From: Dysidea avara | Lineage: Eukaryota > Porifera > Demospongiae > Dictyoceratida > Dysideidae | Assembly: GCF_963678975.1 (NCBI RefSeq) | Contig: NC_089277.1 | Location: 18,600,257-18,664,256, forward strand | Length of the DNA: 64,000 nucleotides | Direction: 5' to 3' | In this document: positions 42,601-62,762 of the stretch, in pieces | How the letters are laid out: each line of letters starts with the position of its first letter | Numbering within the stretch: position 1 is the stretch's first letter | Translations under genes and position numbers: made by a program | The notes under the pieces: generated by a model | What the model was told of the DNA's origin: nothing | What the model saw: the letters and a program-made list of their open reading frames with translations, nothing else | The model's database searches: none

Positions 42601-45600
42601 CCTGTGGGTTACTAGTACTGCCCCAGGAGGATTTTCCTGCGCTGACTCCTAGCACCTGAGTAGCGCACAGGTGTCCCAGCACAGGTTCACAGGGTAGGTG
42701 TGACCCTGCTAGCACCGCAACTGAAGGGTTTTATGTGTGTGTGTGTACACGCAACACTGACAATAGATGTGGACAACATTGATTACCCATATTTGTGTGT
42801 GTAATTTGCACGTTATTTATTAATATGCAGTCTTCTCTACTACTTTATAGTTTGTCTATTGTCTTATGCAGATTCTCAAGACAAAACCTCAAGGCTGCTC
42901 TTATTTTTGTTTGCATACTAAGGAACATGCCCCCTTTCAACTTGTATGGATACGCTATCCTGGTAGCTTACAAGGCCTGCCATGTTGCTGTTTAGTCATT
43001 AGATGCCCATAGACAAGCCACCATTAAGCAATCTCAGTGAAGGGCTATGTCACCTTCAAACAAACATGACTAAAATGGTTATAAGAAAGCTAACCTTCAA
43101 TGCAGTACATACATACGTAAACAGACTTTATTTATTGAATAGTTCTTTTTTTTGTATCTTCAACTTTGTTTGCTCACAGAAATGTGTGAACAGACATGCA
43201 GACACACCCAAACCAAGACCACATGTGTTGGGTATGATTGACACAACAGATACTTGCAATGCAACCAGACTCATCCCACTTAGCAACCCTTGTCCGGTAC
43301 ATAACAGACATGGGACTTATTGGTTAGAGATTATATTAAGTACCAGCAGGAGCTTTTAATAAGCCCCAGTGGAAAGGTCTATGATGTACCTATGGTCACT
43401 AGGGTAATAAGTTAGCCTGGTGCTTATACCGTTTGCAGTAGTAGTTGTTTCCAACTACAGAATCAGGAGGTAGTCCACCAGGGGTGCACGAGAAATTGTT
43501 GTTACTTGTGTAATTATCAGAATTCCCAATAGCATACGTCCACTGAAATTATGCACATATATATGTCTCCGTGGACTCCCATAAGTGATTGATAGACCAT
43601 AGACACCATTAATTCCTTTGCTGCCTTGGTACTGTAGCTTGATGTTTCTCCCTCTTGATAACTAACCTCCTATTCTACCACACACCCTCTGGTAACTTGT
43701 TCCATTAGTGTAGAAGTAAGCAGAGTAAATGCCCCATGCACATGTGTCATATAATGAACGACAGAGAGGCTGACACCAGAGTGATTACTCTTAACTCATC
43801 CATTAGGGCAGTTGACTTTTCACTATATAGTTTCAGGATTGTTGTTGTAAATGTCCTCACAAGTATAATTCATCCCACAATACTAATATACAGGTCACTT
43901 GTGATCCTCTATATTTATGTTGTAAATGTCCTCACAAGACTCACCAGGGTAAAATGATGGTTGAAACTGGTCCATATTGTACTGATCATCATCAGCCATC
44001 ACCATGCAGGTCCTTAGTGTACGTAGTTCACAGCCGTTATCTTTATCATCTAGATCATTGTGCACCTTACTTGTTTCAGGTGTCATGTACCACTCAGTTT
44101 ACTGGTATTATTATTAATTGTTAGTTTACTGAGTGTGTGTGATGCAAGTGCTTGACATGTTTGTCAATGATTCATATATGGCAACAATCAAAGTACTGTT
44201 GTGGTAGTTTCAGGCCTTGTGAAGGGCCTGGCTTGACAAGAATCAGTGGTTTACTGGTGGATGGCCTGATTATGTTGGCCAACCTCTTTTTCTGTTGATT
44301 TTGCTGCATATCAGCAACTAAGAGGCCAGCACAGTCCTATACTCTCATGTCTGGACTTCAATTGCAATCTGCCAGTGACTTAAGTTTGAGACAGATACAG
44401 TAGATATAAAATCAAGTTGTATTAGCCTGGTTTTATAGGATGAGTGGTGGTTATGGCAAACTACCTCATTGTCTTATATACTTTCCTTGTTCCTGCATAT
44501 ACATATATTATCCACAAGTAACAATTTCAGATGTATTGCAATGCTATACAGCAAGTGCTGAACATACATCATTGTTTGTATGTACATATACTGGACCACA
44601 TATTCTCCACCCTACAGAATGGAGAGATTGGTAATAAGAGTTGTTACTACTTGTCCACACTACTGGACACAGAACATGTGTTCACTCTACTCTACAAACA
44701 GTTCACTAGTTCTCCTCACAAGTTGGTAAAGGTGACCTTCCTCTCCAGCCATGTTGGATCTGATAAGCTCAAGAAGGTATGTACATACATTTGCACTAAA
44801 TTCCAATCACACTACACTTTTAAATTTTACTATTACAACATCTCAGTAAATGAAGGCAGCAGAAAGAAGGAGGGGGAGACTATGGGGCTGAAGCCTCCCC
44901 TCAGAAGGATATCTCACCAAAATTATCCTTGGGGCTGAAAACTGTGAAAAAGTTGATATACTCTAATACAGTGCTCAAATAGCCTAATAGTTGGGTAGTC
45001 AAAGTAAAACTTGCCTAAGCAGGAATCAAACCACTAACCTATTACTTGAGAGCTGGTGCATCTTACCACTGCGCCAAGTGTATTTTGTAATGCTGTATGT
45101 ATGTTAACTCTCTATATAGTCAACAGCTAAAAGTTTTGCCAAAAGGTTTTTGTTGACTAAATAGCCAGTTTAAGTACATATTTATGCAAAGTTGGTATTT
45201 TAGTTGAAATGGTTCATATTGTACCTATAAAATAATTCTGGTGAACTTTGAGACATCATGAAAGCTAAAATGGTTACAGCTTCTGAGGGGTTGTGCCCCC
45301 CAGATTCCCTGCTACCAGAGATTCTAGTGTATACTCTGGTCAGCCTCCCCTCTCATCAATTGCTTCCTCTGTCACTGTCAGTAAAGGAAGAAGAGATACA
45401 AATTACACAAAAATTGAGGTCACGGTTTACAATAACAATTATGTCCAGTTACATACATAAACGAATTGTGTTATGTTGCCCACCTCAAGCATTAACTTAT
45501 ACATGTTAATTACATGGCTACTACATATGGCTTAAACTGGGAGTTGATATGTTGAAAATGTTGTACAGGCTGGCAATCTTCAAAGTTTTACAGATATTTC

Positions 45601-48600
45601 AGTGCCACACCCTATACATGCAATGTGTATGTGAATCAAGCTCAATGAAACAGGGTGTTGTAATGAAGAAGAGCTTTGCAGCATTGGCTTAGGTGTTTAT
45701 GTACATATGAACACATGACATACAACATGGGAGTAACAAGTGCTGCTTTAAAGTGTTGCGTAATATCATATATACCTACCTACATACATACATACATACA
45801 TACATACATACATACATACATACATACATACATACATACATACATACATACATACATACATACATACATACATACATACATACATACATACATACATACA
45901 TACATACATACATACATACATACATACATACATACATACATACATACATACATACATACATACATACATACATACATACATACATACATACATACATACA
46001 TACATACATACATACATACATACATACATACATACATACATACATACATACATACATACATACATACATACATACATACATACATACATACATACATACA
46101 TACATACATACATACATACATACATACATACATGCAGTGAATAACGTTGTGCTTATTCCAGATGATGTTGGATATCCGTTCATCAACTGGAGCAAGTGAA
46201 GAGCTACCATTACACATTTCTGATCTGGTGGGCTACATATGGAATGAGGCTAATGGAGAACTCAATGATGTACTATCTGTACCAGTGGAGCGTATTAAAT
46301 TGGAAGAGGTTGAGAAGGCTGAGGCAGCTTTGTTGTCCATTAAACTTATTCTTGATGGAGCTAACAAAAATGGAAACTTACAGAAACTAAGAAATGACTT
46401 TTATTCTGCTATTCCACACAAACACAAGGCTGTATTGGATACAAAGAGGATGATAGCTGAGAAACAAGATCTCTGCCAGGTGTGTGTGTGTGTGCGTGTG
46501 CGTGTGCGTGTGTGTGTAGTGTGTGAGTATGGTAGTGAGTGTGTGTGCTTGCTTGCTTGCTTTTTTGTGTGCAGTGTACTGTGTGTATGTGTGTGTGTGT
46601 GTATGTGTGTGTAGTAGTATAGTAGGAGGATCTGCTTGCACTAATTTCTAGAACTCTAGAATATAAGTCTCCCAGTGTTTTACTGAGTAGGCACTATTAT
46701 GTAAACTGTAGTTGATTTGCATTTATGAGTGTTTGTGTCTGTGGTCACTACCAACACTACCTATTCCATACTTTTAGTTGGTTAGAGATGTGGTCAGTAT
46801 TGGTGAGAGTACCAACTGGTCCACAAGGAGTAACATGGAGAGCAAATATCGGTCACTACGTTGTGACCTGACAGTGTTGGACCAGTCCTCCGAGGAGTTT
46901 GTGTACATCAGACAACTTCTACTGGACAGTCAGGATAAGTGAGTGGATAACACTAATCAATTTCTATACATGTTGTAATTTAGTTTTAAAACTCTATTAG
47001 AACATTTATGATTAAGTATGCAAAAATTTGAAGCACTAGCTAGCTAATAATATTTTGTTCTTCCTTCACAGATCATCTTCATCACTGATAGAAGTGAAGA
47101 ACATTTATGGGGTACATCGACCAGTGGAGGATGGTCACTTCACACATCAGTTAGACAACAAACAGTTATTGTTCCATTCCTCATCAGTATGTTACTATCC
47201 TCTAGTCTCTATATTGACCCTTCTCTACTATAGGTGAAAAACTTTGTTGGGATATTATCAAGGTGTACATTTGGATTAATGTCAATTTAAGTGTGCACCC
47301 GCTGCAAGCAATGATGTGCTAGATTCCTGGAAATGATTGGGTGCCATGTTACGTGCATATACCCATTGCCTGTAGACATTGAATGTGTTATGCATTTTTT
47401 GATACCAGAAAAAGCACACTAGTGGTTATGTGTTCGTTAAGATTTTCCACTGTGGGAATTTCATAAGCAGATTTTTCTAAAGTTACTAGATTTAAGTTAA
47501 ATCCTTGTATGCATGCTTACAGTATTGATTTGGCTGCCCCTCAACTTAAGTACAGATGTAAAGCAGGCTCTTTTTATTTTATGAATGTTATCCCATTAGG
47601 GGCCTGTGAGCCTGTGAATACAGGGAGTCAGAAACATGTAACTAAAATGTGACTGTTTTGTTTGTGTATACACATATGTATATGTATTTGTACTTGTGCT
47701 TATAGTTGCCATATTGTTCACCACTCAGAGGACTATTGTTACCCAAGATTGTGGTGGATGATTTTGGAGGTACAAGAACTGATCCAGGAATGTTGGGAAG
47801 TGGGATCTATTTTGCTTCCACTTCAAGGTGATTGAGAAGTGTGATCAGCTGATGTTATTAGTGTCCTTCACAGTGTCTCATCACAGTATTCTAAACCAGG
47901 GAAGACTCGTGGTAGTCGTCTGATGTTAGTCAACCAAGTGGCCTTGGGAAATGTCTTGGTATGAATACTGTATGACTTGCAAATGCATTCATACATTCAC
48001 TCATGCACATGCATATACATGGAAAATGACTGCTTTACATTTAGAGACTCTACCATACAAGGAAGGTTCATTACAGACTATAGCTATTGTGTCTATTGCA
48101 ATCTTTCCAGGAGACCACATCAAGGATGATGGGGGTTACAGAGGCTCCTAAAGGTTACAGCAGTGTTCATGGATTAAAGACCAGTGATGAGTTACCATCA
48201 GAGTTTATGGGAGATGAGTATGCTATCTACTCCACCAGTCAACAAAGAATAAGGTAAAGAAATACATACAGTACCTGGTCTGGATTTTTTGTAATTTCAA
48301 GTTACTGATTCCCTGGTTCACAGGCTTTCTATATATAGCCTCCTTGCAGGTCTCTAGTGCCATATATATGTAGTAATAAACAGACTGTGTAGATTAATTT
48401 CCATATCCATTCAAATGTATACTGTGTGTATTGCTTTTTATGTCAGCATACAATTAAACATTTGCTGTGTTTTGTGTAGATATTTGGTGGAATTCTCTTT
48501 GCCTGGAGATGTAAAAGGTGTTCTAACATGTTTACGCACTTATTTATGAAAGTATGTACATTGCCATATCACCATCAGGTCCTATTGATCATCAGTTATC

Positions 48601-48742
48601 AGTTACTGGAGATGAAGCAGTTAGTGAAGCTAGTGATGTTGATGAACCAGTCAATGCTGAAGGTGTGTGTTACTTGAACTACACCATAGCAAGCGTTGTG
48701 TTGTACTTTAGCGTTTACAAATGCACATTCACTACACACGCA

Positions 48743-48784
<42 letters not shown>

Positions 48785-50008
48785 CACACTCACACTTACT
48801 CATATGCAGAGAATATTTGTTACTGCTGGTTACCCACTTATCCTCCCCACATGAACTGTAGCTGTATCACTGAGTGATGTACAGGACATAGAGGATCCCC
48901 TCAACAAGGTGGAAGCTGGTCTGGTGGGGGGAGATATCCCATTACAGTCAGTACATATTAAAGCTAAACTGATTGACCTGGCAGCTCAGGTGAACACAAC
49001 ATCTCCTCACATACACTCCATATTGTTCTATAGGTGATAGTGTTACAAGCTTATAAGAACTTCAGTAAGAAGCCAATTGAGGCCAAGTATGTGTTCCCAT
49101 TGGATGACATGGCAGCTGGTATGTGTGTATACTTCATAGTCAATGATATAGTGTTGTATGTGTTGTAGTGTGTGGGTTTGAGGCATTCATCAATGGTAAA
49201 CACATTGTTGGTGAAGTGAAGGAGAAGGAACAAGCACACAAGGAGTACAGGGAGGCCATTAGTCAGGGACATGGAGCCTACCTCATGGATGAAGAGACTC
49301 CAGTATGTGTTGTGTTGTGTAGTGTAGTGTGTGTGTTTGTGTGTGTAGTGTAGTGTAGTGTAGTGTTGAAACAAATAGTAATTTTACTATTCGAATGGTT
49401 GTGAACAAAACAACCGAATACTCAATTATTCTTTAAGCTTATACTTCTATTGAATGAGTACTTAAACCTTTTGTTTGGGAGCAAGGTAAAGCAAAGCCTA
49501 AAAGCTAGTTCTATCTTTTCTAAAATAAAATTTTTACAGCAGATACATCACTTCATTCACAAATTTAAGTTTCAAGTCTGGCTATTCCTTCTGAATACAG
49601 TGTACAAAGTGATAACAATTAATCAAATAGTGTGTTAACAAATCAAATAGTGTCATGCCAACCGAATAGTGTCATGCCGACCGAATAGTCAAATAACCGA
49701 ATAATCGTTTCAGCACCAGTGTAGTATGATCTAGTGTTTGCATACGTGTGTGCGCACATGCATGCATGCATAAGAAGCGAAGTGTTCGATGCACCTGTCC
49801 ATAAAATCTATGCATATCTGCCTGACCCCTATAGAATGTGTTCACGGTCAGTGTTGGTAATCTCCCACCTGGGGCTAGTGTCCTGATCAAGATAACATAT
49901 GTTGCTGAGTTGTTGGTGGAGGGTGAGAATATTGTGTTCAGCCTACCAGGATCTGTAGCTCCATGGAAGAAGGATGCTGCTCTTGATACTACCACACAGG
50001 TGTGTATT

Positions 50009-50040
<32 letters not shown>

Positions 50041-52215
50041 TGCGTGCGTGTGTGTGTGGGTGTGTGCGCGCACGCGCGCGCACTTGTGTCATTTAATGGG
50101 TGAGATGGTTAGGTTCATGGAAGACTTTGAATCCCTACATCTTCATAAGGCATAATGCAACCTCTTGTGGGATACCAGGTTTGTCTGCACTAGCCTACAT
50201 ACCTGCACAGTGTACACTGCACAGATAGTCTTCTTTCCATGGGTAGCCTATGTAAAAGACAGCTAAAGGTTTATTTTGTGTGTTTTTATGTTGTAAAAAA
50301 TCACCAAAAAAACAGTGTTATAGAGTAGTTATATACTTATAACCAGTAGATGCATCAGATAGATGTTGATAAAACTCAACAGTAAAAAAGTTAATGCAAG
50401 TTGGAGTTTGGAGAATCTGGGTATCGATCCCAGTACCTCCTGCATGCGAAGCAGGCGCTCTACCATTTGAGCTAATTCCCCAATTGATTGTATGTAGTCT
50501 ATGTACTGTCTATTAACACATTTTAATATATAAGGCATCAGATAGTTTAAATAAGTTTAAGAACAATTTAGATAATTACTGGCATCAAATTGAATATGGA
50601 CAGACTAAAAGGCCCTCGGCCTATTATTAAGTTACCTGTAATGGTTGTACGTTGTCCATAGTTTAATACTAATACTAAGGCAAGGTTGTGATACATTAGT
50701 ATACATCACATGCATATCTCCTATAGACTGATGTGGATAAAGTCAAGGTCACTAAACAAGGGTGAGTAAACAAATGCATGAGTCAACTTTTGTTTGTTTG
50801 TACACCATCCAGTCTTCACATGTCATATTCCTTCTAGTGATGTTAGTGTTCAAGTGGCTGTGGAGATGCCATTCAAAATCAGAACAATTGAATCACCAAC
50901 TCATAAGCTAAGAATTAAAGTATGCTAGTATATACAAACTTATAATTATGCTTTTATGTTTTCAAATATGTGATACATTTTACCAGTCATTTGTTCTTTA
51001 ATCTGTGTACAAGTTTGTATGTATATGTGTTTGTTCATTAATTCTGAGTTTTGCTATGTAAGTTGCTTCCATGCTACTGTGTACATATGTCACTTCTATC
51101 CACAGAAAACAGCCACCAAAGCAGTGGTTGAGATGTGTGAAGGAGATGATGGATTAGGAGATGGATTTCAGCTACTAGTTGGACTGGCAGAAATTCACGT
51201 CCCCAGAATGTGGGTGGAGGAGAATGATCAGTCACATCATGTGAGATCATGTGATCCTCCTATCAAGTTTTAACTACTAGTCATCACTAGGCGTGTATGC
51301 TGACATTTTATCCTGAATTTGAGGCTGAGTCCATCGTGGATAATGAGATCATCTTTTGTCTTGACTGCTCTAACTCCATGAAGGTACTAACATGTGTATG
51401 CATATATCATCTCTCACACTGAAAATTTATAAAGTTGTAATTGCCATCCTTAAATTATGGGTTTTGTTTACAAGAAAGTTGTCGCAGAAAGTGTTGTATG
51501 ATATTGCTCATGTACAAACTGTGTACTGTATATTATGTTGAAATGATGGAGCTTATTTATTTATTGTCATGCATGGTAGGGAGAGACATTGGTCAGTGCA
51601 AAGAAAGTTCTTCTACTAACACTTCATCATTTGCCTCCAAAATGTCTCTTTAATGTGATCACCTTTGGAGCAGGTAAACAATGCATAATGAGAGTAACAA
51701 TATTAGTAGTGAGTTACGTGTGTATGTATTATATTTCCAGCTTATGATGAGCTGTTTCCTTCCTGTCAGCCAAAGAGTAAAGAGACTGTTACAGCTGCCA
51801 CTAACTACATACAGGTACATATAGTACACATGTCTACATATCCAATACAATACTTGTAGGATGCTACAGCTACTATGGGTAGTACAGATGTGTGGAGACC
51901 ATTGAGGTCACTACTGCTATTATCCAGTGGAAGTGGTGCAGACTCGTCCACTCTCCCTCCTCGTAATTTGTTCCTTGTGACTGATGGACATATGACAGAA
52001 GAACAGCCAACACTACAGGCCATCAGACAAGCAATACACACCACCAGGGTGTTCACTTTTGGAGTAGGGTAAGTTTGTGATGTGTAACTACTAGTGTTTG
52101 AGTGTGAGTTTGTGTAGGAAAACTGCTAATCGTCACTTCCTGAAGTCCATGGCTAGAGTTGGTGCAGGATATGAAGAATTCTTTGATCCTAAGACCAAGT
52201 CAAAATGGCAAAGAA

Positions 52216-52260
<45 letters not shown>

Positions 52261-55200
52261 TGTGTGTCTGTGTGTCTGTGTGTCTGTTTGTCTCTGTGTG
52301 TCTGTGTGTGCGTGTGTGTGGTGCAGTGTATAGGTATTGCATTATCACATATTTCTGGACATACTCAGGTAAAGTCACAACTGAACAAGGCATTTGAACC
52401 AGCTCTCACTTCAGTGAAGGTGATGTGGCAACAGTTTGATGAAAATGCTCCTAAACCACTCCAGGTAGTGATTTACAGTATTTGGAGTAGAGAAAAAGTA
52501 TATGTGTTGGTGTAGTACATATAGTGTAATTTAAAATATTTAGTTTGAAAATGAAGTTGGGTTTTAGTAATTAAAAAGTAGAGAACTTATATGAGTGATG
52601 GTAACATAGCTATGTGGGTAATCTCTACCTAGCATAATGAGCAACATCCACAATGACATTTCTTGACATGGCGATTATGTTTTTTGTTTATTATCTATGA
52701 TGTCACAAAACAAAATGGTCACCGTAGTGTGGGGACTTTGTACAGGGAGGTATTGGGCGAGATAGTGTTTCCATATGGTAGTGTTTATGAATATGAATAA
52801 GGTCGAAGGTGAGGCGTATAGTATATAAATAAGCCTATTTGTGTCTGAATTAAAAATTTTGGTCTGCGATCCTTGTTGGAGCATGTTTTGCACCGTCACG
52901 GTGCGTGTACTACTTCTTACCTTATTATCTAGTGGATTTATGTGTAAAAAACTACAGACAACACCAGGGGCGGTGGAGCAGGCCAAATTGTGAGGGGGCC
53001 AGGCCAGCTGTAAGTTGAAGACCACAAAAAAAGGTCACAACTGCAGCCTGCTGACAATAGCTGCTCTCCACCAATTATATCTCCTTATTTATAACTATAC
53101 ACACATGTAGCTAAGTAATTTGCTACACTGCTTCTCTGAATACTGTGACTGCTCTATTAGAGTATCCAGATCCTGACTGTTCTATTAGAGTATCTCGATC
53201 TTTTCTTGCAAACAGTGTCCCAAAAAGTGGGGGGCCCCCCTGGCCCCCTCGTCTCCACCGCCTATGGACAACACTCATTTTGAATACTGTGTGCCAAAGT
53301 CTCTGAAGCCCACACACTAACGTGGCCATTTGTCAATTATGATGTTGAATATCAAATTTCATCATTGTAGATATCATCCATAGGAAGAATACTTGTACCA
53401 TGCTATAAATCCTTGCTTGTCAAAATACAAATCACAGAAAAAAGACCGATATACTCTAATAGAACAGTCAGTAACTTTAATAAAAAAACAATCAGGCAGC
53501 TGACTGTTTTATTAGAGTAAGTTGATCATTTTAACCAGCAAAGATTGATAGTCTCTACTTCAGCCACTTATTAATTACCCATAAAGTGGACATTTATAAC
53601 ATACAGTAGGAACTGAGGCATTAATTTTGAGCATGATAGGCAATTTTTTTGAGCACTGCTCAAAAGCATAATAGGTAAAATAGAAACATAATTGGTGGGT
53701 CCCTACATCTGTTCAATGCCATTGCATTGTACCAAAAAGGCACATGCCACATGAGTCTGTTATTGTGGCTGAATTTGTGGCCTTACAATGCATTGTTTAG
53801 CCTTTAGCCTTGCGACAGTGGCAGGCTGACAGGAAGGTCAAGGAAATGTTACACTATGCTATAGTTTGTTGTGTGGGTCCAGGTAATTAAGTCACCTGTT
53901 CTTTTTTCTGTGTGTGCATAAGAATTCATCACCTTTTCTGTTGATAGTGCGAGGGTTGTGACAGGTTAAAGTCAATCAAAACAGTTGGTGCATGTAATGA
54001 TGCAAGAAGCTTTAGTATACAAGACAATTCTGCTGAAGAGAATATTTTCTGCCTGCCAGCAAAATGTTACCCGACATTTTTCATGCCTGCACACTCTTAT
54101 ATATGTCTGCCAAATAGGAACTTGTTGGGCTGAAACAATGTTGAACAGTGAAAAATCAAGCCTTAGCCATATCGAGTTGTGCTTGTCTGAAGGCAGGTAG
54201 GCGGGCAGTCAAGCAGGCAGGCAGGCAGACAGTCAGTCAGTCACATGGTAGAAAGTTCCATTGAATAAATTTTTTTTGTAGTAAGCATTTAGGGTCATAC
54301 TGAAGGCACTTCTGGGATTGTTTGTACCTATCCAATACTGCCAAGGTGCCAGGATGGTATTGTGAAGCTGGTTTTTGAGTGATATTTTTGGCCAGAAAAT
54401 TCCAAACCTCCATGATCCCTAATATACAATACTATCTTATGATAATTATACTACACCACTTCTGTGACATCGAGTGGTAACACTTAATTAGGAGATACAA
54501 TAGCAACTTTTATGTGATTGTGAGGTATTTTGTTTGTGTGGGAAAAGCATATGACCCGATGACCAGACAGTCTACACAGCTCTAGCCTTTAAACTTAGTA
54601 ACATGCAGTATGCATAGAATGTTTATTTAAAGACCTTTTGCAAAAATTACAGTAAATGTTGTTCAAAGTAGAATGCCATGGTTCTATATTAACTCCTAAC
54701 TTTATGCATTGGCTGCTCTTATATAATAACACATAAAGGAAGTGATTGTGGGTTTTAATATTTAAACTGTTCAACAGTTCACTGTTATTTTGTATGCTTT
54801 AAATAACCACATGTATAATATGATTGATGATATACTCAACACAGAGTAAATGGGGTGGCTGTCTACACACTATGCATACTCTGGTAAATCATTAACTACC
54901 CTAACAGAATGATCACTTGGTGCTAATATATGGAGAAGTGTTGATAACCAACATTTGTCCATTGGCTCAAGTGTTTTAAAATATTAATTATCTGGTTGAA
55001 GTTGTGTATGTGTTGCTTGAATACTACTGTATGTCTTTAGCTGGTTTAAACTGTAGTAGAATAAGGTGTGTGCTTACTGTAATAATAAATCAATAGAGTC
55101 AAAGCTGTTGTAGAATTATTCAGATAAATTCTATAGCTATTATTATTTGAAGTATACATGAATAGCATCACACTGTGTGTGATAACCATGTGTTGTTTCA

Positions 55201-55302
55201 TCATACAGGCACCTCAGGAGATAGTGTCACTGTTTAGTGGATCACGTCAAGTGGTCTATGGGTTTGTACCTCACTGTCTTCAGGTGTGTGTGTGTGTGTG
55301 TG

Positions 55303-55339
<37 letters not shown>

Positions 55340-56641
55340 CGTGTGTGCGTGTGTAGTGTGTGTTTGTAGTGTATATAGTGCGCAAAATGGTTTTGAATTT
55401 ATAAATCATTACAGACCACATTGAAGGCAAAAATTGGTAGAAAAGAAGTTGAGACAATGGTGTCTACATCAGAGATGGGAATTACCCATGGGAAGGTATT
55501 TACATACTATTGCTTGTATGAATCATGTTAAATTTTGCACTTATAACAACAATACAATTAGGTATTTTATGTAACGATTGTTTTATCATTAGGTTTTACA
55601 TCAGTTAACTGCTCGTGCTATCATCAGAGACTGGACAGATGGATCTCTTGATGCTGACCGAACCCAACACGAGGTTGGTGCCAAATATGTACTGTGTATG
55701 CTTTGTAATGTGTTCTGTCTGTGTGCACAATTTGTGGGATATCACATGCTGTACACATGCAGATCATCAAACGTGACCGCAAGTCTTACATCATCAACAT
55801 CAGTAAGGAATACTCCATTGTGTCCCAGTTCACTAGCTTTGTAGCCATTGAGAAGAGAGAGAAGGTGTGAACTATTATTACCAGTAACTGTATTGCCAAT
55901 TGACACTTGTTGACAGGATGAGAAGTTTGAACAATCAAAAGGACCTTCTATAGCAGAACTAGTTGACAAAGAGAATGTTGATACATTACAATACATCGGT
56001 TGGGAGGTTGATCAGTCTAAGGACTTATCCAAGGTGAATAATCAAATACATGTAATTCTAAGATATTGATGGCATTGTGTCTGTTTATATATATTGTAGG
56101 AGACTGAGCTACACTTGATGACATTTACAGAGAGTGTTAGTAGTGATCCTGATTCATTTGGTACTGGAGCAAAGTTGAAAGAAACTTTTGATAAACTAAT
56201 GCAGGAAGCAAAACAGCATTTACAAGCAACCCATATGGAGAAATCCAGAGTTAGTATTATGCAGTTACATATTAAGGTTCTAGTGTGTGTGTGTGTGTGC
56301 GTGTGCGTGTATGAACTTTTACATGTACATAACTTGTTAACATGTTGTCTGTTACCCTACAGGCAGTGGAGGCAATGGTGACATATTATGTTGATATTGA
56401 AGAGTATGATAAGGGTAGAGCTGTAGTAGAGGACTATGTCAGTGAGCTGTCATTAGAGAGCGCCAGTGAAATGGCCAGTACATTTTCAAAGTACGTACAA
56501 TGTAACCACTTATCTATATTTGTCATTAAGTATATTTACTGCTTTAAAGCCAGGTGGGCCTACACCTAGCCTGTGCAATTGACTATGGTCCTGAAATTGC
56601 TTTCCTATTTCGTATGCTGGCATGTATGCTTTTACATATGT

Positions 56642-56727
<86 letters not shown>

Positions 56728-59700
56728 GTGGGCCCATCTGCAAAAGGTTTTCCCGAAGGCTTCATGTGCAACGTATGTATAAATGCCACAAATATAATTA
56801 TTCAACTCACAGTACCATTAGCCTTCTGTAAGGTCCTTTTTGGTGTCACACATCTCTGAGAAGGTTGTATAGGTTTTTCTATGCATGTTCTGTACAGGTT
56901 TATTATCAGCAGGACCCTGTGGTATAGACAAAATCTATATTTTAAAGTTATAGGTAATGGGTCATTCCATGTCAAATCACCGAGGAATTGTAGGATCACC
57001 TCTTGGATTTTTACGAAACTTGGTGTGTTTGTAGTACCTATGGTGCTCATCATCCATACCAATTTTTAGCCTCATATACTGCATAGTTTCTGATATATGA
57101 CCACAAATATTTTGAATATTTCATGAACAATTGGACCGTCTTGAGTTACAGAATCAACTGTAGCTCACCACTGTGTTAATATTTTAAAATAAAAATTTCA
57201 GCGATTAAAGACTGTTAATTTATCTTTCAAGTAATCCATAAACTATGGGGTATCAATTTAATTAAGGTTCAAAAAGGCTCCATTAAAAACTATAATCCTT
57301 AATATTTCAAAAAGTGCTGCTCCAAATTCTTTGAATTTTTTAGAAACTGATAATTAGGTTATGGTCTATTGCTGGTTAAAGTTTTGTGGTGGGGCCACAA
57401 TGGGTTCAAGAGATATAATTAAATATGTTGTGGTATGTAGTGGAATTTTGTATTCTATTATTGCTATATGAGAGTGTACACCTCTAATAACCACTCCTGA
57501 TAAGGCCATGCCAACTTTGTCTTACACAATGAAGGTGTCCAAGTATAGTGCAACCTGTGTTAGTGACCACCTGTATTGAAAGACCACCTGTGTGCTGATA
57601 TTTATTTAGTTGCATAGTTTTCAAATACAGCCAGCTTATATAGCTTGCAAAGGCAGCACAATGACCAGCTAATGACACCACGTCAGTTGTTCAATTGAAC
57701 ATGTAGTAACATACCTGCTACTTACTTTGGGTATGGTAGCAATGAAGATTATTCGAGAGAACAGGGACATTGCTTTCAACTCTCACGTACAATCCCTGGT
57801 ACGAGAAAACTGTACTCTTTTGTGCCAATTTCAGATAGCAGAGTGGAAATAAAATTTTACTCATAATCTGATGTTTTCAGGAAAGAGAGAGTTCCACCAG
57901 AATTGATTGCTGAATTTGTCACTTGTATACACATGAAGAGAATTGTGGTTAGCTTGTGTGCTTGAAGTTTGCAGTGACACTAAGGAAGTGAAACTGATGT
58001 TTCTGTCCATCAAACTCGTTCAAGTATCCAGAGCCCCAGAATATCCACACTACACCAATGGATGACATTCTCTCATAGACCCAAGGACAAGAAGTGGTCA
58101 TGTGTACTCTCATAACTCTGACAAAACGAAATGACTTTTGCTACCTAACAGCATCACACTGTATCACCACAGTAACAAACTTGTATTACATGCCTTTGTC
58201 TAAACTTGTTTATATATGCATAAATTTAACTTGCAGTTGAATCAAAAGAGTCTTGTGTGTCTGCAAGCCTAAATCAGCAGAATGGACTTCGAGGTGTGCA
58301 ATACTACATGGGGATATCTGCTATAGTACTGTAAACACCGCTAGCTACCTATCTCATAATCCCATAGAGACCCCACGCTGAAACTTTTGCAACTAATAGG
58401 TGAATGTCTGACAAGTAAATTCTAATCAGCATGTTTTGGTAGACCAAAGATTAGGAGACATGGCTAATTATCAACTTCATCAAATTAAATATACCAAACA
58501 AAAGCTTATTCTTTTGAGCTTTAAAGTGGTGCAATTCATTTTAAAAACACCCAAGTTATGATGCTTTGAATCGTCACAAGTATAGCAAAAAAATAGAATA
58601 CTTAATAAGCTATTTCTGAGAAGCTATACAGGCAATGGGTGAAAGGACAAATATGACCACTTGGGCTACCCACACACCGAATTTCATCCAATTCTGAGGA
58701 GGTCATGTGCAAAACTGTGGTGAACTGATATGGAATTACCCATACAGTAAATCCAACTAAATAAATTGCAGTACAAAGGTGGTCTTTCAATACAGGTGGT
58801 CACTAATACAGATTGCACTGTACTTGGACACCTTCATCGTGTAAGACAAAGTTGGCATGGCTTTATCAGGAGTGGTTATTAGAGGTGTACACTCTCATAT
58901 AGCAATAATAGAATACAAAATTCCACTACATACCACAACATATTTAATTATATCTCTTGAACCCATTGTGGCCCCACCACAAAACTTTTACCAACAATAG
59001 ACCATAACCTAATTATCATTTACTAAAAAATTAAAAGAATTTGAAGCTCCACCGTTTGAAATATTAAGGATTAAAGTTTTCAATGGAGCCTTTTTGAACC
59101 TTAATTAAATTGATATCCCATAGTTCATGGATTACTCGAAAGATCAATTAACAGTCTTTAATCGCTGAAATTTTTATTTTAAAATATTAACACAGTGGTG
59201 AGCTACAGTTGATTTTGTAACTCAAGATGAACTAATTTTTCATGAAATATTCAAAATATTTGTGGACATAAATCAGAAACTATGTGGTGTATGAGGCTAA
59301 AAATTGGTATGAGTGATGAGCACCATAGGTACTACAAACACACCAAGTGTCGTCAAAATCCGAGAAGTGACCCTACAATTCCTTGGTGATTTGACATAGA
59401 ATGACCCTAATGCCTTTGAATGGATACTGTTCCACAAATAAACAGGAAAGGTACACATTTAGTAAGTGGCAAGGAAAAAAGTATTTGTACTCAGTTACTC
59501 CTACTGACGGTTTACACTGATGCCACAACATCCTAATGACTTCTATTTTATAATTAAGGCCATTCCCATTTGAAAAGTTGTTGTTCAGATCTTGTTGCAA
59601 GCCAAATAGGCCGGTTGGTAGGTCGGATAATAAATGGAAAAAAAAAATTTATACTGCACTGCACTGTCTGCAGTCAAATCAAATTACAAGCCATTGAAGG

Positions 59701-62700
59701 ATATATAACTATATAGCACACTAAATACTGAAGTTTTGGCATAGCATAGGTTTCCTTCGTCAGAGGGTGGGGCACTGGCCTAGACAGATGTATGTAACTA
59801 TAGTGTGCTCAGTGACTGTTCTATTAGAGCATCATGATCATTTTGCAACAGCTAGAAATTAAATTCACATGTCAGATTTTTTCTATTTATGATTAAAATT
59901 GAGTTGCGGGTCCGAGCAACAACTTTTCAAGTATGTAGGTATGGCCTAACCACTACTATGTATTTAGGTTTTTTTGATATTTCAGTTTGGGCCACAATGT
60001 ACATTAGTATCGTGGCTTTGTGATTACCTAGGTATGATTCAAGATATTTGCATTGGCCTTGTATGTTGGAAGAACTAATAAAGTTTTTCAACTTGAATGG
60101 TGTGTTTGACAATCTCAAAAGAAAGATAAAGTGTAACTTTGAATGCTAAAGAATTTACATAAGAAATACTATGAGACAATTGAGTTTGTGCATGGGTATT
60201 TGTATTATGAAGGTGCATTGTTTTGTAACATGTGATTAATTATATGAACAGTTGAATAATTATTAACCGACAATTGTTTGCGCAAAATGGATACGTATTC
60301 GGTATTCAAATTGCAGCGCACCATTAACCTAATTGTTATTTGTTTCAGAAATGTTCATGATAAAATTGATGAAGCTCAGAAAGCAGGTGCAATGTATAGT
60401 ATTACTGTGATAAATATGCATATATACATATACATATATCTTGTATGCACACTTATCTTTTTAATGACCATTGACCATACCATGCAAACATATAGCATCA
60501 ACATTTCAATTGTGAATTGGTTGTCTAGTTAGATACGTACAACTAAAATTTGGTAGGTATACAAAACAAAACAAACAGCACACAGCTTGATTCTTGTATT
60601 GTGTAGGACACTGGCACATTTATGTGTGTACAGAACATGTACATGGAATGGGAACCTGTCATTGCTGCTAATGCCGTTTTTGTTACTAGCTATTTGAGAG
60701 ATTTTTTTTTTGTATTGAGACATGCTCCTAATTAACAAGTCAAACACTCTTACAGGACGTCTTACTCTCGTTATCAAGACATTAACTGGTCAAACAATCA
60801 CTAGAGACTTGCCACCCAGAGCAACCATTGCAGACCTGAAGGCCAGGTTACAGAAAACAGAACACATTCCACCTGACCAGCTATATCTGTTGTTTGGTGG
60901 AAAACTGCTAACAGATTTGCGCACTTTAGCTGATTATAAAATGCAGTCAGGTGATACTGTTCACATGGTACTGAGACTAGGAGGAGGTATACAGTGTACA
61001 TGTGCAGTGTATGTTGTACTTACATATATGAATATTTCCAGCTAATGTGGAATTTTACTTTTTGGATAAGTACACATCAGAGATCAAATACGAATTAATG
61101 TGTTTTTGCCTGACAAGAATGTGTAGTATACTTAGAATCACAACACATAGTGGTGCATTCCTTGTCCCCAGGTATTACACACATTTTACTATAATTATAT
61201 ATCCACACATTTTAGGCAAATTACTCAATACGTGGTATGGTAGTGTTACAACTATTGTGTGTGCATGCATGTGTGCGTATGTACATGTGCATGCGTGCGC
61301 GTGTGTGATTTACAATGTATGATGTTATTGTGTAGCACCCCCTAAGCCGAAGAAAAAGTATAAAGAAAGTCTTGGTGCATCAGCTGTTAGTGATGCTGGA
61401 AGGCTCCAGTTCAAAGTACGTAAGAATGCACAAGTACCTAATATATTTGACATTTACTGATATCTCAATTTTCCATTGTATTGCTTTCAAAAATTATTAA
61501 ACATCCAAAGTGGTGGTTATGTGTGAGAATATTTATCGTGTGCTTTGATTCAAACTTATTACGTTAAAAGGTGGTGAAAAAACTAGCCTATTTGACCTCT
61601 CACAAGGTATAGAGCATCACTTGCACATGGAGTGATGCTTCTTTCCTGTCCACACTCTAAAGAGCACAGGCACTATATTGTGCCATGCCAGACTTATAAG
61701 TACACTAAATATAGTTCCTGTTAGGCTTGCATTCAATATGTTGTACATGTTGAAATTGTTGTACAGTTTTAATGTTTTTGACGACATCTTATACATATTG
61801 CACAATGTACAAATTATTATACAGGAAGATTCAGTGGCTTTAGATCAAACAGGCTCACATGCTAGTGATGGAGATGTTCCAGTGAGGAAAATGGGACAGA
61901 GAAAATCAGCAAGATGGTCTTCTTCTAAGAGTTTATTAGTTTCTGAACCAAAAAGGAGGTCACTTAGCAAACATGGTAAAGCAACGCTTCACTGATTCAA
62001 CTGTATGATACAAAACTACGTATAGAGAACTGTTGTGTACTGTGTATTTATGGTGCTTACCAACATACACTTGCATGCCGTATCATATTACAGTACAATG
62101 TATTTGAGTGAAATTTGCTATCAGTGAAGATTTGCAATATAAAATAAATTTATAATTGTACTTGTTGTCGTTACATATATAGGGAGTAGAGACCTTTAGA
62201 CGAAAAACTCTTGCTGTTAAGGAGAAAAGTGACTTTTCTGTATTAGAGTATATGACAGATTCTGTTCTTATAGAATATATTCAGTAGCTATGTGTATGTT
62301 ATATTATAAACCTGTATGCTGCAAGTGTGACATGGTAATATGTAGTGAGAATTGCATCATGCACTATAAAATAGAAATTAAAATAATACATACACCTACA
62401 AGTGTGTATTATATTTTGATACAACAAAGCAGTTTAATAATATAAGTGTAAGGAGTCAACTGTTGTAACATTTTGTTTGCTCACATGTTAAATGTGTGGA
62501 AAAGACATGCAAATCCGGTCACATATATTTATCTCATACAGATACTTCTGGCTGGTTTGCAACAGAACAACATCAAGTCTCAGAGCAAGATAGGAGCAGA
62601 GGATACTTAGACTTAGAACCAGTAGACACTAATGAAAGGTGGAAAACGTTGGATGATGAGATTGCTGCCTACAGTAATGCAAACTCTTTGTTCTGTCTGC

Positions 62701-62762
62701 ATACACTTTTATTTACGCGATTTACACGTATAATTGCATGCATATTGCTATGCATATTCTAA
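31809..62762 (+). CDS. PARP4: PARP4 (vault poly-ADP-ribose polymerase) orthologue, about 39 exons
   Basis: Vault PARP transfers ADP-ribose within the vault ribonucleoprotein and nucleus. The modelled exons sum to 4677 nt (1558 residues; human PARP4 is about 1724). The start MGIF at 31809 coincides with the start I recall for the human protein. Domain order matches vertebrates: BRCT (residues about 1-110), PARP regulatory helices (243-348), catalytic domain (349-570), VIT (598-768), VWA with an intact MIDAS (853-1042), then a conserved post-VWA region to about 1226. Unusual features are an HSS in place of the HG[S/T] catalytic motif, a ubiquitin-like domain at about 1332-1408, and no recognisable MVP-binding C-terminus. 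The end is uncertain: reading through exon 38 gives a stop at 61995 before an AATAAA at 62143, while exon 39 stops at 62762 or may splice once more. Introns range from 46 bp to 8 kb. Confidence 0.92.
31976..32225. mobile_element. TTAA-flanked foldback MITE in PARP4 intron 1
   Basis: A 250-bp near-palindrome whose arms share AATTAGGGGTGTGGCTCTCC and GTATGTTGGCCA blocks. It is bounded on both sides by TTAA (31972-31975 and 32226-32229), the piggyBac/Kolobok-type target. It begins only 38 bp after the exon 1 donor. Confidence 0.75.
32501..32681. repeat. 53-bp tandem repeat, 3.4 copies
   Basis: Three 53-bp units begin at 32501, 32554 and 32607, followed by a 22-bp partial unit. Units differ by single substitutions (for example TTCGTAAG versus TTCATAAG). 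Located in PARP4 intron 1. Confidence 0.95.
35421..36340. mobile_element. 920-bp inverted-terminal element with internal 17-bp array
   Basis: The 24-bp ends, beginning AGCGTAAGTGACC and continuing to ATTATCGAAC, are inverted copies with one mismatch. Further ATTATCGAAC motifs lie in the left half (about 35611, 35632 and 35661). The right end is a tandem array of GTTCGATAATAGGTACC-like units (36198-36333) in the opposite orientation. No target duplication and no coding domain are evident. It sits in PARP4 intron 4. Confidence 0.8.
36198..36333. repeat. 17-bp tandem array (eight units)
   Basis: Seven full units start at 36198, 36215, 36232, 36249, 36266, 36283 and 36300. An eighth, at 36317, runs into the element's terminus. 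Units differ only at the last base (ACC or ACT). Each contains the GTTCGATAATAGGT motif that also forms the terminal inverted repeat. Confidence 0.97.
36955..37265 (-). pseudogene. 3' fragment of the secreted Cys-rich gene family
   Basis: The minus strand aligns by eye with the last third of the intact gene at 40605-41633. It shares the 3' flank (CTCTAGTTGATCA), the AACCATGGTTGGG-like block around the last conserved Trp, and the CTCCTCCTTCC region. Indels and stops break the frame, and the N-terminal two thirds are absent. Confidence 0.7.
37941..38204 (-). CDS. Unassigned open frame, possible 3' exon
   Basis: This 87-codon minus frame encodes [20 protein letters not shown] and then [20 protein letters not shown] before ending FDSEI. 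It has protein-like composition and a possible acceptor (TAG at 38155-38157 on the minus strand). I do not recognise a family. Its 5' part overlaps a sequence resembling a MITE terminus (CAGTGGCGGATG), so it may be a gene fragment carried by a transposon. It lies in PARP4 intron 5. Confidence 0.2.
   Translation of the reverse strand: MESESSSENFYIRHCNRGGQDGQMVDVDDWLKWKKFIAQVLSNTTELYTGFPEFHQGSKLLVWLTAEFGKGRSRPHTVTLADFDSEI
38740..39030. repeat. Dispersed repeat, copy 1 (partner at 54130-54430)
   Basis: Shared blocks are AATCAAGCCTTAGCCATA, then a GGCAGGTAGG-type short array with CAGTCAGT, then GAAGCTGGTTTTTGAGTGAT and GTGATCCCTAATATACA-like sequence. Both copies lie in PARP4 introns in the same orientation. 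Confidence 0.65.
39090..39215. repeat. Direct repeat, copy 1 (partner at 39920-40050)
   Basis: The block TATTGAGTT(A/G)CTGTAGTGTG continues for about 110 bp and recurs at 39925 with about 85-90 percent identity by eye. The copies are 830 bp apart. Confidence 0.7.
39259..39703. mobile_element. hAT-like MITE with a SINE inserted
   Basis: Inverted termini AGGTGCACCAATA and the complement of AGGTGCACCGATA enclose GGTATCGG-type internal repeats near both ends. The centre (39391-39486) is a tRNA-derived SINE. It sits in PARP4 intron 5. Confidence 0.65.
39391..39486 (+). mobile_element. tRNA-derived SINE-like sequence
   Basis: A-box-like CTAGTAACACAATGGTT and a perfect polymerase III B box GGTTCAAATCC (39456-39466) are correctly spaced, followed by a T-run. 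The sequence does not fold as a good tRNA, so a SINE head is the better reading. Confidence 0.6.
40526..40531 (-). terminator. Polyadenylation signal of the nested Cys-rich gene
   Basis: AATAAA on the minus strand, 74 bp after the stop codon of the intact gene, supports it being a functional transcription unit. Confidence 0.5.
40605..41633 (-). CDS. Secreted cysteine-rich protein of a sponge/cnidarian family, intronless, nested in PARP4
   Basis: A single uninterrupted frame of 342 codons. A TATA box just upstream of the first ATG suggests translation starts at residue 15 ([20 protein letters not shown]), which is an excellent signal peptide. The mature protein has two repeats of a SCxDIYxxN...GYYxI...YC pattern (roughly residues 52-82 and 88-118), reminiscent of the fibrinogen-like N-terminal motif. 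These are followed by a larger Cys/Trp-rich module (about 125-342) with [69 protein letters not shown] and DIEVRLC. From memory this module recurs in many uncharacterised secreted or membrane proteins of sponges and cnidarians; its function is unknown. There are several N-glycosylation sequons and no transmembrane segment after the signal. It is transcribed opposite to PARP4 inside its 8-kb intron 5. Confidence 0.78.
   Translation of the reverse strand: MAYDTFGSSTVSNIMLTIMYYTVAMILTVELVMADDQCTEYQFQSPFYPGKSCEDIYNKNSESHKWPGYYWITEGPDRVYCGMNYTGSSCVDIYMGNLETGDKSGYYRINNDYWTFCNMTEIAAGIISNCAGMGGEWRRIAYININAGTDCPTGWVKSNYSGIGFCRSPNNNWGCYSAYFSTNGTSYQRVCGRARGYQKGETSSFEGGQGINGVYADGLSITYGTSRIHIWTYAAGRSDNQTHIHNCPCAPGGQSPPSFVGNNYYCESGATGISTRPTYYLNDPLWDGSGCITSTCCANRTQPWFLNELGETITSDIEVRLCTWWQFDLRAILIDQLELYIQ
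41647..41654 (-). promoter_or_regulatory. TATA box of the nested Cys-rich gene
   Basis: TATAAAAT on the minus strand ends 13 bp before the first ATG. With the usual 25-30 bp offset, transcription would start inside the first codons, so the second ATG (residue 15) is the likely start. Confidence 0.5.
41905..41995 (-). repeat. SINE-like dispersed fragment
   Basis: The reverse complement matches 27957-28025 (shared GTAAACACCTC, TACAGGCT and CCCTCCAGTGC blocks). A related piece lies near 1545-1580. A (GTTT)n run at 41887-41902 borders it, which would fit a retroposon tail. Confidence 0.5.
42530..42728. repeat. GC-rich block with internal inverted repeats
   Basis: About 200 bp stand out as GC-rich within AT-rich intron. 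The pair GTGAAGGT and ACCTTCAC at 42539 and 42571 can form a hairpin. Further CAGGTGTCCCAGCAC and GGTAGGTGTGACC stretches follow. It is non-coding in all frames and could be a structured SINE or satellite unit. Confidence 0.45.
43190..44086 (-). pseudogene. Nearly full-length broken paralogue of the secreted Cys-rich gene
   Basis: From the 5' side (44086) it retains the sequence around [12 protein letters not shown], then collapses through several internal deletions. It keeps recognisable blocks for SYQRVCG, YAIGNS-like, CCxPG and FxxNNYYC, and the C-terminal CIASVVSI region near 43250. Stops and frameshifts occur throughout. It is the same strand and family as 40605-41633. Confidence 0.75.
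44618..48517 (+). CDS. PARP4: PARP4 exons 6-13: regulatory and catalytic PARP domains
   Basis: Exons are 44618-44776, 46162-46479, 46778-46938, 47072-47186, 47706-47827, 47874-47958, 48111-48253 and 48480-48517. Exon 7 encodes the helical regulatory domain ([20 protein letters not shown], then [18 protein letters not shown] and IPHK). The catalytic part shows the His in [18 protein letters not shown], the GSGIYFAS loop, the Tyr in SSQYSKPG, and the Glu in [20 protein letters not shown]. The His-Tyr-Glu set expected for polymer-forming PARPs is therefore present. The residue after His is Ser instead of Gly. All phases agree. Intron 10 is only 46 bp. Confidence 0.93.
44985..45085 (-). mobile_element. 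tRNA-derived SINE-like sequence
   Basis: On the minus strand an A-box-like TGGCGCAGTGGTAAGATGC and a B box GGTTTGATTCC (45022-45032) are spaced as in tRNA genes, and ACTTG/CAAGT could form a short acceptor-like stem. The anticodon arm is poor, so a SINE head or decayed tRNA is more likely than a working tRNA. Confidence 0.5.
45781..46133. repeat. (TACA)n tetranucleotide array, 353 bp
   Basis: About 88 uninterrupted TACA units end 28 bp upstream of PARP4 exon 7. Long Tyr/Ile/His/Thr frames across it are artefacts. Confidence 0.98.
48579..50919 (+). CDS. PARP4: PARP4 exons 14-20: linker and VIT domain
   Basis: Exons are 48579-48662, 48862-48989, 49034-49118, 49169-49302, 49835-49999, 50727-50761 and 50838-50919. 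Exon 14 is an acidic linker. The VIT (vault/inter-alpha-trypsin) domain follows, with [20 protein letters not shown], then [30 protein letters not shown] and [20 protein letters not shown]. These are close to the human sequence as recalled. Exon 19 is only 35 bp. The intron between exons 18 and 19 contains an antisense tRNA gene, and the intron between exons 17 and 18 contains a hAT-like MITE. Confidence 0.93.
49366..49720. mobile_element. hAT-like MITE in PARP4 intron 17
   Basis: The left end AGTGTTGAAACAAATAGT and the complement of the right end (GGTGCTGAAACGATTATTCG) are diverged inverted termini, with several ACCGAATA blocks inside. A target duplication cannot be told apart from the surrounding GTGTA repeats. 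Confidence 0.5.
50410..50481 (-). tRNA. tRNA-Ala (anticodon CGC)
   Basis: The minus strand gives a 72-nt cloverleaf without an intron. It has a 7-bp acceptor GGGGAAT/ATTCTCC (one G-U pair), a D arm GCTC/GAGC, and an anticodon stem CCTGC/GCAGG. The loop TTCGCAT reads anticodon CGC (alanine GCG codons). A T arm CTGGG/CCCAG with loop ATCGATA completes it. A and B boxes are intact. It lies antisense in the PARP4 intron between exons 18 and 19. The overlapping 69-codon frame with [20 protein letters not shown] is the familiar false translation of tRNA-Ala. Confidence 0.93.
51106..52464 (+). CDS. PARP4: PARP4 exons 21-27: von Willebrand A domain
   Basis: Exons are 51106-51240, 51291-51383, 51580-51673, 51741-51814, 51860-52068, 52118-52217 and 52369-52464. 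The VWA domain carries a complete MIDAS: DCSNSM (DxSxS), the Thr in GSTDVWRPL and the Asp in [26 protein letters not shown] follows, as in human PARP4. After the VWA, WQRK is followed by SVKVMWQQF. Introns 21, 24 and 25 are about 45-50 bp. The donor of exon 26 opens directly into a GT array. Confidence 0.93.
52219..52320. repeat. GT/CTGT microsatellite at a PARP4 donor
   Basis: A GT run begins at the exon 26 splice donor and degenerates into TGTGTCTG units. Confidence 0.95.
52970..53270. mobile_element. MITE with GGCGGTGGAG ends
   Basis: The left end GGGGCGGTGGAGCAGG and the complement of the right end (CATAGGCGGTGGAGACGAGG) are inverted copies. G/C-run pieces lie next to both ends. The interior carries two tandem copies of the dispersed GACTG(C/T)TCTATTAGAGTAT motif. 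Located in the 2.7-kb PARP4 intron 27. Confidence 0.6.
53271..55208. other. PARP4 intron 27 remainder
   Basis: No gene is seen. It includes further copies of the CTCTATTAGAG-type motif (53448-53530) and the second copy of the 38740-39030 repeat at 54130-54430. The rest is AT-rich. Confidence 0.5.
54130..54430. repeat. Dispersed repeat, copy 2 (partner at 38740-39030)
   Basis: Same block order and orientation as the partner, including AAATCAAGCCTTAGCCATA and a GGCAGGCAGGCA/GTCA short array. Confidence 0.65.
55209..56490 (+). CDS. PARP4: PARP4 exons 28-34: post-VWA region
   Basis: Exons are 55209-55283, 55415-55495, 55593-55673, 55763-55864, 55917-56033, 56100-56249 and 56363-56490. Exons 28-32 match the conserved region after the human VWA, with [43 protein letters not shown] and [17 protein letters not shown]. 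Exons 33-34 ([16 protein letters not shown], then [20 protein letters not shown]) are predicted helical and have no counterpart I recall in vertebrate PARP4. The exon 33 end is ambiguous (GTTAGT at 56250, or 27 nt later). Exon 34 ends in phase 2 before a 3.9-kb intron. Confidence 0.88.
56643..56728. repeat. GT microsatellite
   Basis: A nearly pure GT run of about 85 bp in PARP4 intron 34. Frames across it are artefacts. Confidence 0.97.
56959..59407. mobile_element. 2.45-kb foldback element with arms of about 650 bp
   Basis: The arms 56959-57612 and 58757-59407 are reverse complements at roughly 90 percent or better by eye. They share GGGTCATTC at the tips and CCAACTTTGTCTTACAC further in. 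TAAT lies directly outside both ends (56955-56958 and 59408-59411), suggesting a 4-bp target duplication. The 1.1-kb spacer shows no recognisable transposase. Located in PARP4 intron 34. Confidence 0.85.
60349..62762 (+). CDS. PARP4: PARP4 exons 35-39: ubiquitin-like domain and basic/polar tail
   Basis: Exons are 60349-60386, 60756-60986, 61336-61415, 61825-61975 and 62542-62762. Exon 36 encodes a full ubiquitin fold, about 40 of 76 positions identical to ubiquitin by my count. It keeps [16 protein letters not shown], the Lys48 position and the C-terminal VLRLGGG; Ile44 is Leu and Lys63 is Ser. After GGG comes [14 protein letters not shown], then a basic Ser-rich stretch ([21 protein letters not shown]) and a polar tail. 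Exon 35 joins exon 34 in phase (2 plus 1). The same exon frame also extends upstream to ATG 60287, so a separate small gene beginning there is an alternative. The final exon may instead splice at 62673 to a frame ending 62993. Confidence 0.68.
62143..62148 (+). terminator. Possible polyadenylation signal
   Basis: AATAAA lies 150 bp after the read-through stop at 61995. It would end a shorter PARP4 isoform lacking exon 39. Confidence 0.3.

Follow-up and report, generated by a model that had tools for sequence, protein, structure and literature searches.

Features of the locus

The window, that is, the whole stretch of DNA analysed (64,000 nucleotides, C6:18600257-18664256 in a genome of 550.8 Mb and 108 contigs), carries a PARP4 gene on its plus strand. 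The gene was modelled with 42 exons at 33209..76001, running past the window, as one open frame with the stop codon TAA at 76001. Exons were picked by eye, by frame-keeping and by GT-AG sites, and the model begins inside the BRCT domain, at 33209. The window copy of PARP4 is referred to below as W, two paralogous loci on the same chromosome (C6) as P2 and P3, and the ubiquitin-like domain as Ubl. Positions are in window numbering unless C6 or another chromosome is named. The exons of W are:

33209..36639, plus strand: exons 1-4 (33209-33407, 34957-35032, 35080-35167, 36511-36639), C-terminal half of BRCT and the region after it
44618..48517, plus strand: exons 5-12, PARP regulatory and catalytic domains (PF00644 E=5.7e-24, PF02877 E=1.4e-7)
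48579..52464, plus strand: exons 13-26, VIT and VWA domains
55209..56033, plus strand: exons 27-31, ITIH-like region, homologue of human PARP4 1071-1217 (E=1.9e-38)
56100..56490, plus strand: exons 32-33 (56100-56249, 56363-56490), linker conserved in P2 and P3
60349..60386, plus strand: exon 34, 38 nt, joins PARP4 to the Ubl; matches P2 and P3 in length, phase and some residues
60756..60986, plus strand: exon 35, 231 nt, phase 1-1, holding a whole ubiquitin-like domain by Pfam and predicted fold
61336..61415, plus strand: exon 36, phase 1-0, lysine-rich linker beginning APPKPKKK; exons of matching place and phase exist in P2 and P3
61825..61975, plus strand: exon 37, low-complexity linker, placed by frame and splice sites only; no counterpart recognised in P2 or P3
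62542..62673, plus strand: exon 38, linker with donor TACA/GTAATG, placed by frame and splice sites only; no counterpart recognised in P2 or P3
74447-74557, 74598-74725, 74785-74884 and 75727-76001, plus strand, outside the window: exons 39-42, carrying the MVP-interacting domain

The Pfam domain order in the spliced W model is BRCT (partial), PARP_reg, PARP, VIT, VWA and ubiquitin; in the full model the Ubl is followed by the MVP-interacting domain. The BRCT_2 match (E=9.8e-5, 23.0 bits, under the cut-off of 27.3) is partial, with its N-terminal part outside the modelled exons. The catalytic part encoded by exons 5-12 contains the motifs LLFHSSS, GSGIYF and DEYAIY, to which we assign, presumably, the H-Y-E residues of PARP catalysis. 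This catalytic domain lies mid-protein, and its best PDB match is human PARP4 (8sx1, E=3.7e-69). The VIT domain (PF08487, E=3.1e-38, residues 600-710 of the W model) is followed by VWA_3 (PF13768, E=3.2e-20, residues 845-1005). Human PARP4, the vault PARP of clade 5, has the same order of PARP_reg/PARP with H-Y-E, VIT, VWA and C-terminal MVP-interacting domain, after an N-terminal BRCT domain to which the partial match in W would correspond.

The alignment with human PARP4 stops at human residue 1217, and exons 32-33 and then the Ubl come next in W. In human PARP4 an S/P-rich stretch lies between residues 1217 and 1573; here the place after 1217 holds the conserved exons 32-34, the Ubl and a linker. 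Exons 32-33 match nothing in human PARP4 and gave no PDB match at E<0.4.

A 342-codon open frame (40605-41633, minus strand), cysteine-rich and secreted-looking by eye, is nested in the PARP4 intron 36640-44617. It has no Pfam match at E<=1.

The ubiquitin-like exon

Exons 56363-56490, 60349-60386, 60756-60986, 61336-61415 and 61825-61975 form one open frame with GT-AG sites. The joining of the first three, proposed in an earlier sequence-only reading that numbered them 34-36, is thereby borne out; they are exons 33-35 here, the earlier count being one higher because the first exons are absent from the present model. Acceptor sites 61336 and 61825 are both weak: 21% and 30% of window AGs, respectively, score equal or better.

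The sequence-only reading had also assigned a ubiquitin fold to the 231-nt exon, and this holds as well. Exon 35 alone matches PF00240 with E=1.9e-21. The structure predicted for the W Ubl with AlphaFold, from its alignment with the P2 and P3 Ubls and the genome's own ubiquitin, has a mean pLDDT of 90.1, and by Foldseek the predicted fold superposes on ubiquitin with a TM of about 0.92 (rmsd 1.2 to 3nob_C). Against the genome's own ubiquitin, 38 of 73 aligned residues are identical. Residues L8, H68, V70, K6, K27 and K48 of ubiquitin are retained, I44 is replaced by L and R42 by Y, and K11, K29, K33 and K63 are lost. The spliced tail reads VLRLGG-APPK; in the gap-free alignment to ubiquitin R74 is replaced by G, G75 is kept and G76 is replaced by A. 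The ending VLRLGGG given earlier needs read-through of the intron. The Ubl of W is internal and without start methionine.

With 150 of 184 candidates scored, the genome shows at least 145 PF00240 matches, many of them in tandem clusters of diverged ubiquitin-like frames, located at:

C13:10.07-10.34 Mb
C10:5.80-5.89 Mb
C7:12.02-12.09 Mb
C4:41.87-42.02 Mb
C9:16.03-16.11 Mb

Gene end and vault-docking domain

The human MVP-interacting domain, its letters checked against the PDB, was compared with stretches of the same genome. Downstream of the window it matches at C6:18675077 (E=0.90) and C6:18675982 (E=1.5e-5). The spliced W domain (C6:18675041-18676257) is identical to human PARP4 1573-1724 in 31 of 117 columns (26%), with E=1e-13 for this single comparison. 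This vault-docking domain lies in frame about 12 kb beyond 62762, where the gene had been thought to end. That end was abandoned; the donor at 62673 is most likely where exon 38 ends, and the stop at 62762 most likely belongs to read-through of exon 38. Naming 62762 as the gene end is a likely annotation trap, now corrected. Since the MVP-interacting domain follows downstream in frame, on four further exons, the Ubl is internal and does not form the C-terminus of PARP4, as had been proposed.

Exons 34-38 total 632 nt, which leaves a remainder of 2, so skipping the block would throw the docking domain out of frame. The Ubl exon (35) alone is frame-neutral and so could be a skipped cassette. No AATAAA or ATTAAA occurs within 400 nt past the proposed stop at 76001, although the intron ahead of exon 34 has 15 of them, which counts against the gene model.

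Four copies of the MVP-interacting domain are found on C6, and those beyond the W copy include:

C6:18885412-18886724, further copy
C6:18940575-18941155 (18.94 Mb), further copy, with no PF00240 match alongside among the matches listed

For P2 no docking domain was recognised within 45 kb; a candidate about 51 kb downstream was assigned to P2 by order alone. Matches to the MVP gene (PF01505) are present on C10 and C14 of the genome, which makes vaults likely. The sequence from C6:18680001 to at least C6:18692256 reads N; like the other long N stretch, described below for P3, it begins at a round coordinate and is either a gap or withheld sequence.

Three loci with the same exon order

A genome search with exons 32-38 gave two more C6 loci, each showing exons 32 and 33 and a Ubl exon in order. 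The loci and their short exons are:

P2, near C6:18.83 Mb (locus at 18.81-18.89 Mb)
P2 exon 34, C6:18834005-18834042, 38 nt, I-KLEREIDAVQNAG
P3, near C6:19.04 Mb (locus at 19.03-19.07 Mb)
P3 exon 34, C6:19039756-19039793, 38 nt, T-KIQQKIDDAQQAG, chosen by sequence out of 20 candidate 38-nt stretches

A 38-nt exon 34 thus stands between exon 33 and the Ubl in all three loci, and its phases are kept along with a core of similar residues. The Ubl exons are all of phase 1-1 and measure 231 nt (W), 234 nt (P2) and 231 nt (P3); only 60 nt separate exon 34 from the Ubl exon in P2. All three Ubls have an open frame, keep their splice phases and match PF00240 with E<=1.1e-18. P2 has an exon 36 with a phase-1 start, and so, on reading by eye, does P3; the two are alike (LPAVIDTGMFNVK in P3, VPIVIDTGMFTVK in P2). 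That of W shares with them no more than its place, its phase and the opening PPK/LPK, and tblastn gave no match for W exons 36, 37 and 38 in P2 or P3.

The copies differ in how far they have moved from ubiquitin. P3 is the closest to the genome's ubiquitin (54/73 identical) and P2 the furthest (32/73), with W (38/73) between them. P2 carries I44T and H68N. The tails past the Ubl read LRLGG-A-PPK in W, MILDTFEG-LPK in P2 and LRLRGG-PPK in P3, so that only P3 of the three has the full ubiquitin tail LRLRGG.

The stretch C6:19016001-19032000 reads N and hides the 5' half of P3. An early reading of P3 as lacking BRCT, PARP and VIT was dropped on account of these 16,000 upstream bases, and for the same reason P3 is not established as a whole PARP4.

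The sequence-only reading had named a rival to the fusion, a separate gene starting at an ATG at 60287. Two start codons and one further feature of intron 33 bear on it:

56959..59407, no strand assigned: inverted-arm element, 657-nt arms, 93% complementary
60287..60289, plus strand: ATG in frame with exon 34
60722..60724, plus strand: second ATG, in frame with the Ubl exon and missing from the earlier reading

A small Ubl gene nested in the PARP4 intron could begin at either ATG. At 3.86 kb the intron ahead of exon 34 is long, and 15 AATAAA/ATTAAA signals lie in it, as a separate gene might lead one to expect, but about 2.4 kb of it is taken up by the inverted-arm element, a transposon-like insert. 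The ATG at 60287 does exist, as claimed, and is in frame; neither it nor the one at 60722 is found in P2 or P3. Upstream of the Ubl exon there are 48 (P2) and 6 (P3) open codons, and upstream of exon 34 15 (P2) and 9 (P3), in each case with no ATG. Exon 34 keeps its length of 38 nt, its phases and its core residues in three loci, and the MVP-interacting domain is in frame only with exons 34-38 included. The lack of an in-frame ATG in P2 and P3, together with the same exon order, argues strongly against a separate gene, which we find barely credible.

Nothing else speaks as strongly for splicing of the Ubl into PARP4 as the order exon 32, exon 33, exon 34, Ubl, common to the three loci, and this order supports the fusion first proposed for the window. 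The Ubl exon is real and, judged by this comparison of the copies, most likely part of PARP4. We are close to certain of the anatomy, with the Ubl joined to PARP4 by splicing and placed before the docking domain.

Sequence evolution

Between the copies, dS in the PARP4 bodies is 0.07-0.20 (P2 exons 1-32, P3 exons 21-32). For the Ubl it is 0.61 (W-P2), 1.03 (W-P3) and 2.27 (P2-P3), and for the docking domain 0.67 (W-P3). The values point to bodies that were probably homogenised or duplicated recently, by gene conversion or partial duplication, and to Ubl-plus-docking tails that are probably old. Seven of 73 positions are altered from ubiquitin identically in all three Ubls. These shared changes, taken by themselves, suggest that the Ubl was captured once and has a single origin.

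For the Ubl, dN/dS is 0.30 (W-P3), 0.15 (P2-P3) and 0.77 (W-P2, near neutral), so that constraint is visible in two of three comparisons and weak in W-P2. Positive selection on the Ubl was considered and dropped, since synonymous divergence is raised in the tail as well (dS 0.61-2.27, compared with 0.07-0.20 for the body). The changes I44T and H68N in P2, with the W-P2 ratio, indicate that the three copies do not all retain one common binding surface.

The W-P2 ratio and the loss of patch residues in P2 are also what would be seen if the Ubl were a decaying, functionless passenger, retained only as a frame-neutral exon. The two lower ratios speak against decay, as do three open frames with phases kept and PF00240 matches at E<=1.1e-18, and a W model with pLDDT 90; we hold a passenger to be quite unlikely.

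Possible function of the domain

Vaults are abundant particles of unknown function. The sequence-only reading had suggested that a deubiquitinase may cut after the Ubl, by analogy with ubiquitin-ribosomal protein fusions. In such a case deubiquitinases would cut after the diglycine and leave a catalytic part ending in the Ubl and a free MVP-interacting part. The P3 junction has an exact LRLRGG, W has a GG pair before A-P-P-K, and ubiquitin-eS31 fusions are among the matches of a PDB phmmer search with the W Ubl. The spliced W junction, however, is LRLGG-A, with G at 74 and A at 76, P2 is without diglycine, and the residue next to the diglycine in P3 is the first of two prolines. Ubiquitin followed by proline is inefficiently cleaved, according to excerpts of PMC9634822, which make this a usually poor context, although the same excerpts cite a protease that cleaves the ubiquitin-proline bond efficiently (Gilchrist 1997). 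No start methionine opens the Ubl, and no ribosomal protein was recognised past it: the W tail (150 residues) gave one PDB match at E<=10, PRDM11 (E=0.86). A conjugatable (type I) modifier has a C-terminal Gly-Gly exposed by processing; here all three Ubls are internal, with G-G-A at 74-76 in W, none in P2 and RGG then Pro-Pro in P3, which does not fit such a modifier. Neither the proposed cut nor the ribosomal analogy is supported, and we consider such cleavage very unlikely.

Another possibility is that the Ubl chiefly serves PARP4 catalysis in cis, as a substrate or regulator (an auto-ADP-ribosylation site or an allosteric brake), and not as a platform for other proteins. It stands in one chain with an ADP-ribosyltransferase bearing the H-Y-E residues. 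Human PARP4 fragments automodify, according to excerpts of PMC10711553, and ADP-ribosylated ubiquitin is a known species, to go by the title of PDB entry 6k2u. Against this, R42 is replaced by Y in W, and the fast divergence of the Ubl beside a conserved catalytic half does not fit tight co-evolution. A role in cis appears rather unlikely.

The differing tails LRLGG-A, MILDTFEG and LRLRGG-PP make a shared processing role unlikely, and a stable interaction module is therefore the most economical reading. Our preferred explanation as a whole, a PARP4 gene with a Ubl inserted as one phase 1-1 exon and retained as an interaction module, is given a probability of about 0.6. The functional part of it, that the Ubl works as a non-cleaved interaction module, is an evenly balanced proposition when taken separately.

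On the preferred explanation a ubiquitin gene would have supplied the Ubl in a single capture. The domain would have been inserted behind the ADP-ribosyltransferase/VIT/VWA body and ahead of the MVP-interacting domain, and duplication would have spread it. The Ubl would remain attached to PARP4 as a permanent interaction surface, and PARP4, anchored to the vault wall by the MVP-interacting domain, would display an uncleavable ubiquitin look-alike. Possible readers would be proteins with ubiquitin-binding domains, for example autophagy receptors or proteasome/p97 adaptors. I44T and H68N in P2 speak against one partner common to all copies. Docking of PARP4 inside vaults by its C-terminal domain is described in excerpts of PMC10711553 and PMC13174449, and excerpts of PMC13270050 name human PARP4 and TEP1 as known clients of p62 bodies. 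The coupling of vault ADP-ribosylation to ubiquitin signalling that had been suggested for this lineage is plausible as a hypothesis.

A further step is speculative and, in our estimate, rather unlikely. The Ubl might act as a lasting ubiquitin mark on vaults that is written into the gene itself, PARP4 docked to the vault wall displaying it to receptors of the UBA type. With it in place, ubiquitination would cease to be a requirement for turning vaults over or for handling cargo, and copies whose bodies are almost identical but whose Ubl-plus-docking tails are old and divergent would give different readouts.

Comparison with known systems

Several known proteins share part of this arrangement. 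Ubiquitin-eS31 and ubiquitin-eL40 fusions are alike in having a ubiquitin fold and then a basic tail, but the Ubl described here is internal, has no start Met, reads LRLGG-A for LRLRGG and is followed by no recognised ribosomal protein. The non-processed UBL domains of multidomain proteins, for example those of protein kinase D and TBK1 (TBK1_ULD), are alike in being a stable Ubl within a signalling enzyme; the enzyme is another one, and the Ubl here is attached to a vault-docking domain.

Clade-5 PARPs of Acanthamoeba castellanii likewise combine a PARP4-like protein with a ubiquitin-related domain, according to excerpts of PMC4245714. This organism is an amoebozoan, and the likeness extends to the description 'ubiquitin-related' only, not to domain type or position. 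The excerpts of the same paper (Perina et al. 2014) mention no animal PARP4-like protein with a ubiquitin-related domain, and no ubiquitin domain figures in the account of the clade given in those of Citarelli et al. 2010 (PMC2964712). In open-licence PubMed Central literature, PMC4245714 is the only source among the matches listed for a ubiquitin-related domain in a PARP4-like protein. Relatives outside this genome were sought with a 445-residue VIT-VWA query; viral contigs gave no pattern match, and genome contigs gave 20 pattern matches, none of which (0/20) encodes a relative. A Ubl in a vault ADP-ribosyltransferase is a fresh variation, the combination of a ubiquitin-related domain with a PARP4-like protein having already been reported (PMC4245714).

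With a Ubl between the enzyme body and the docking domain, in several copies, the lineage offers a natural experiment in which vaults, ADP-ribosylation and ubiquitin readers are brought together. The link between PARP4 and p62 bodies in human cells, so far vague, becomes testable as constructs.
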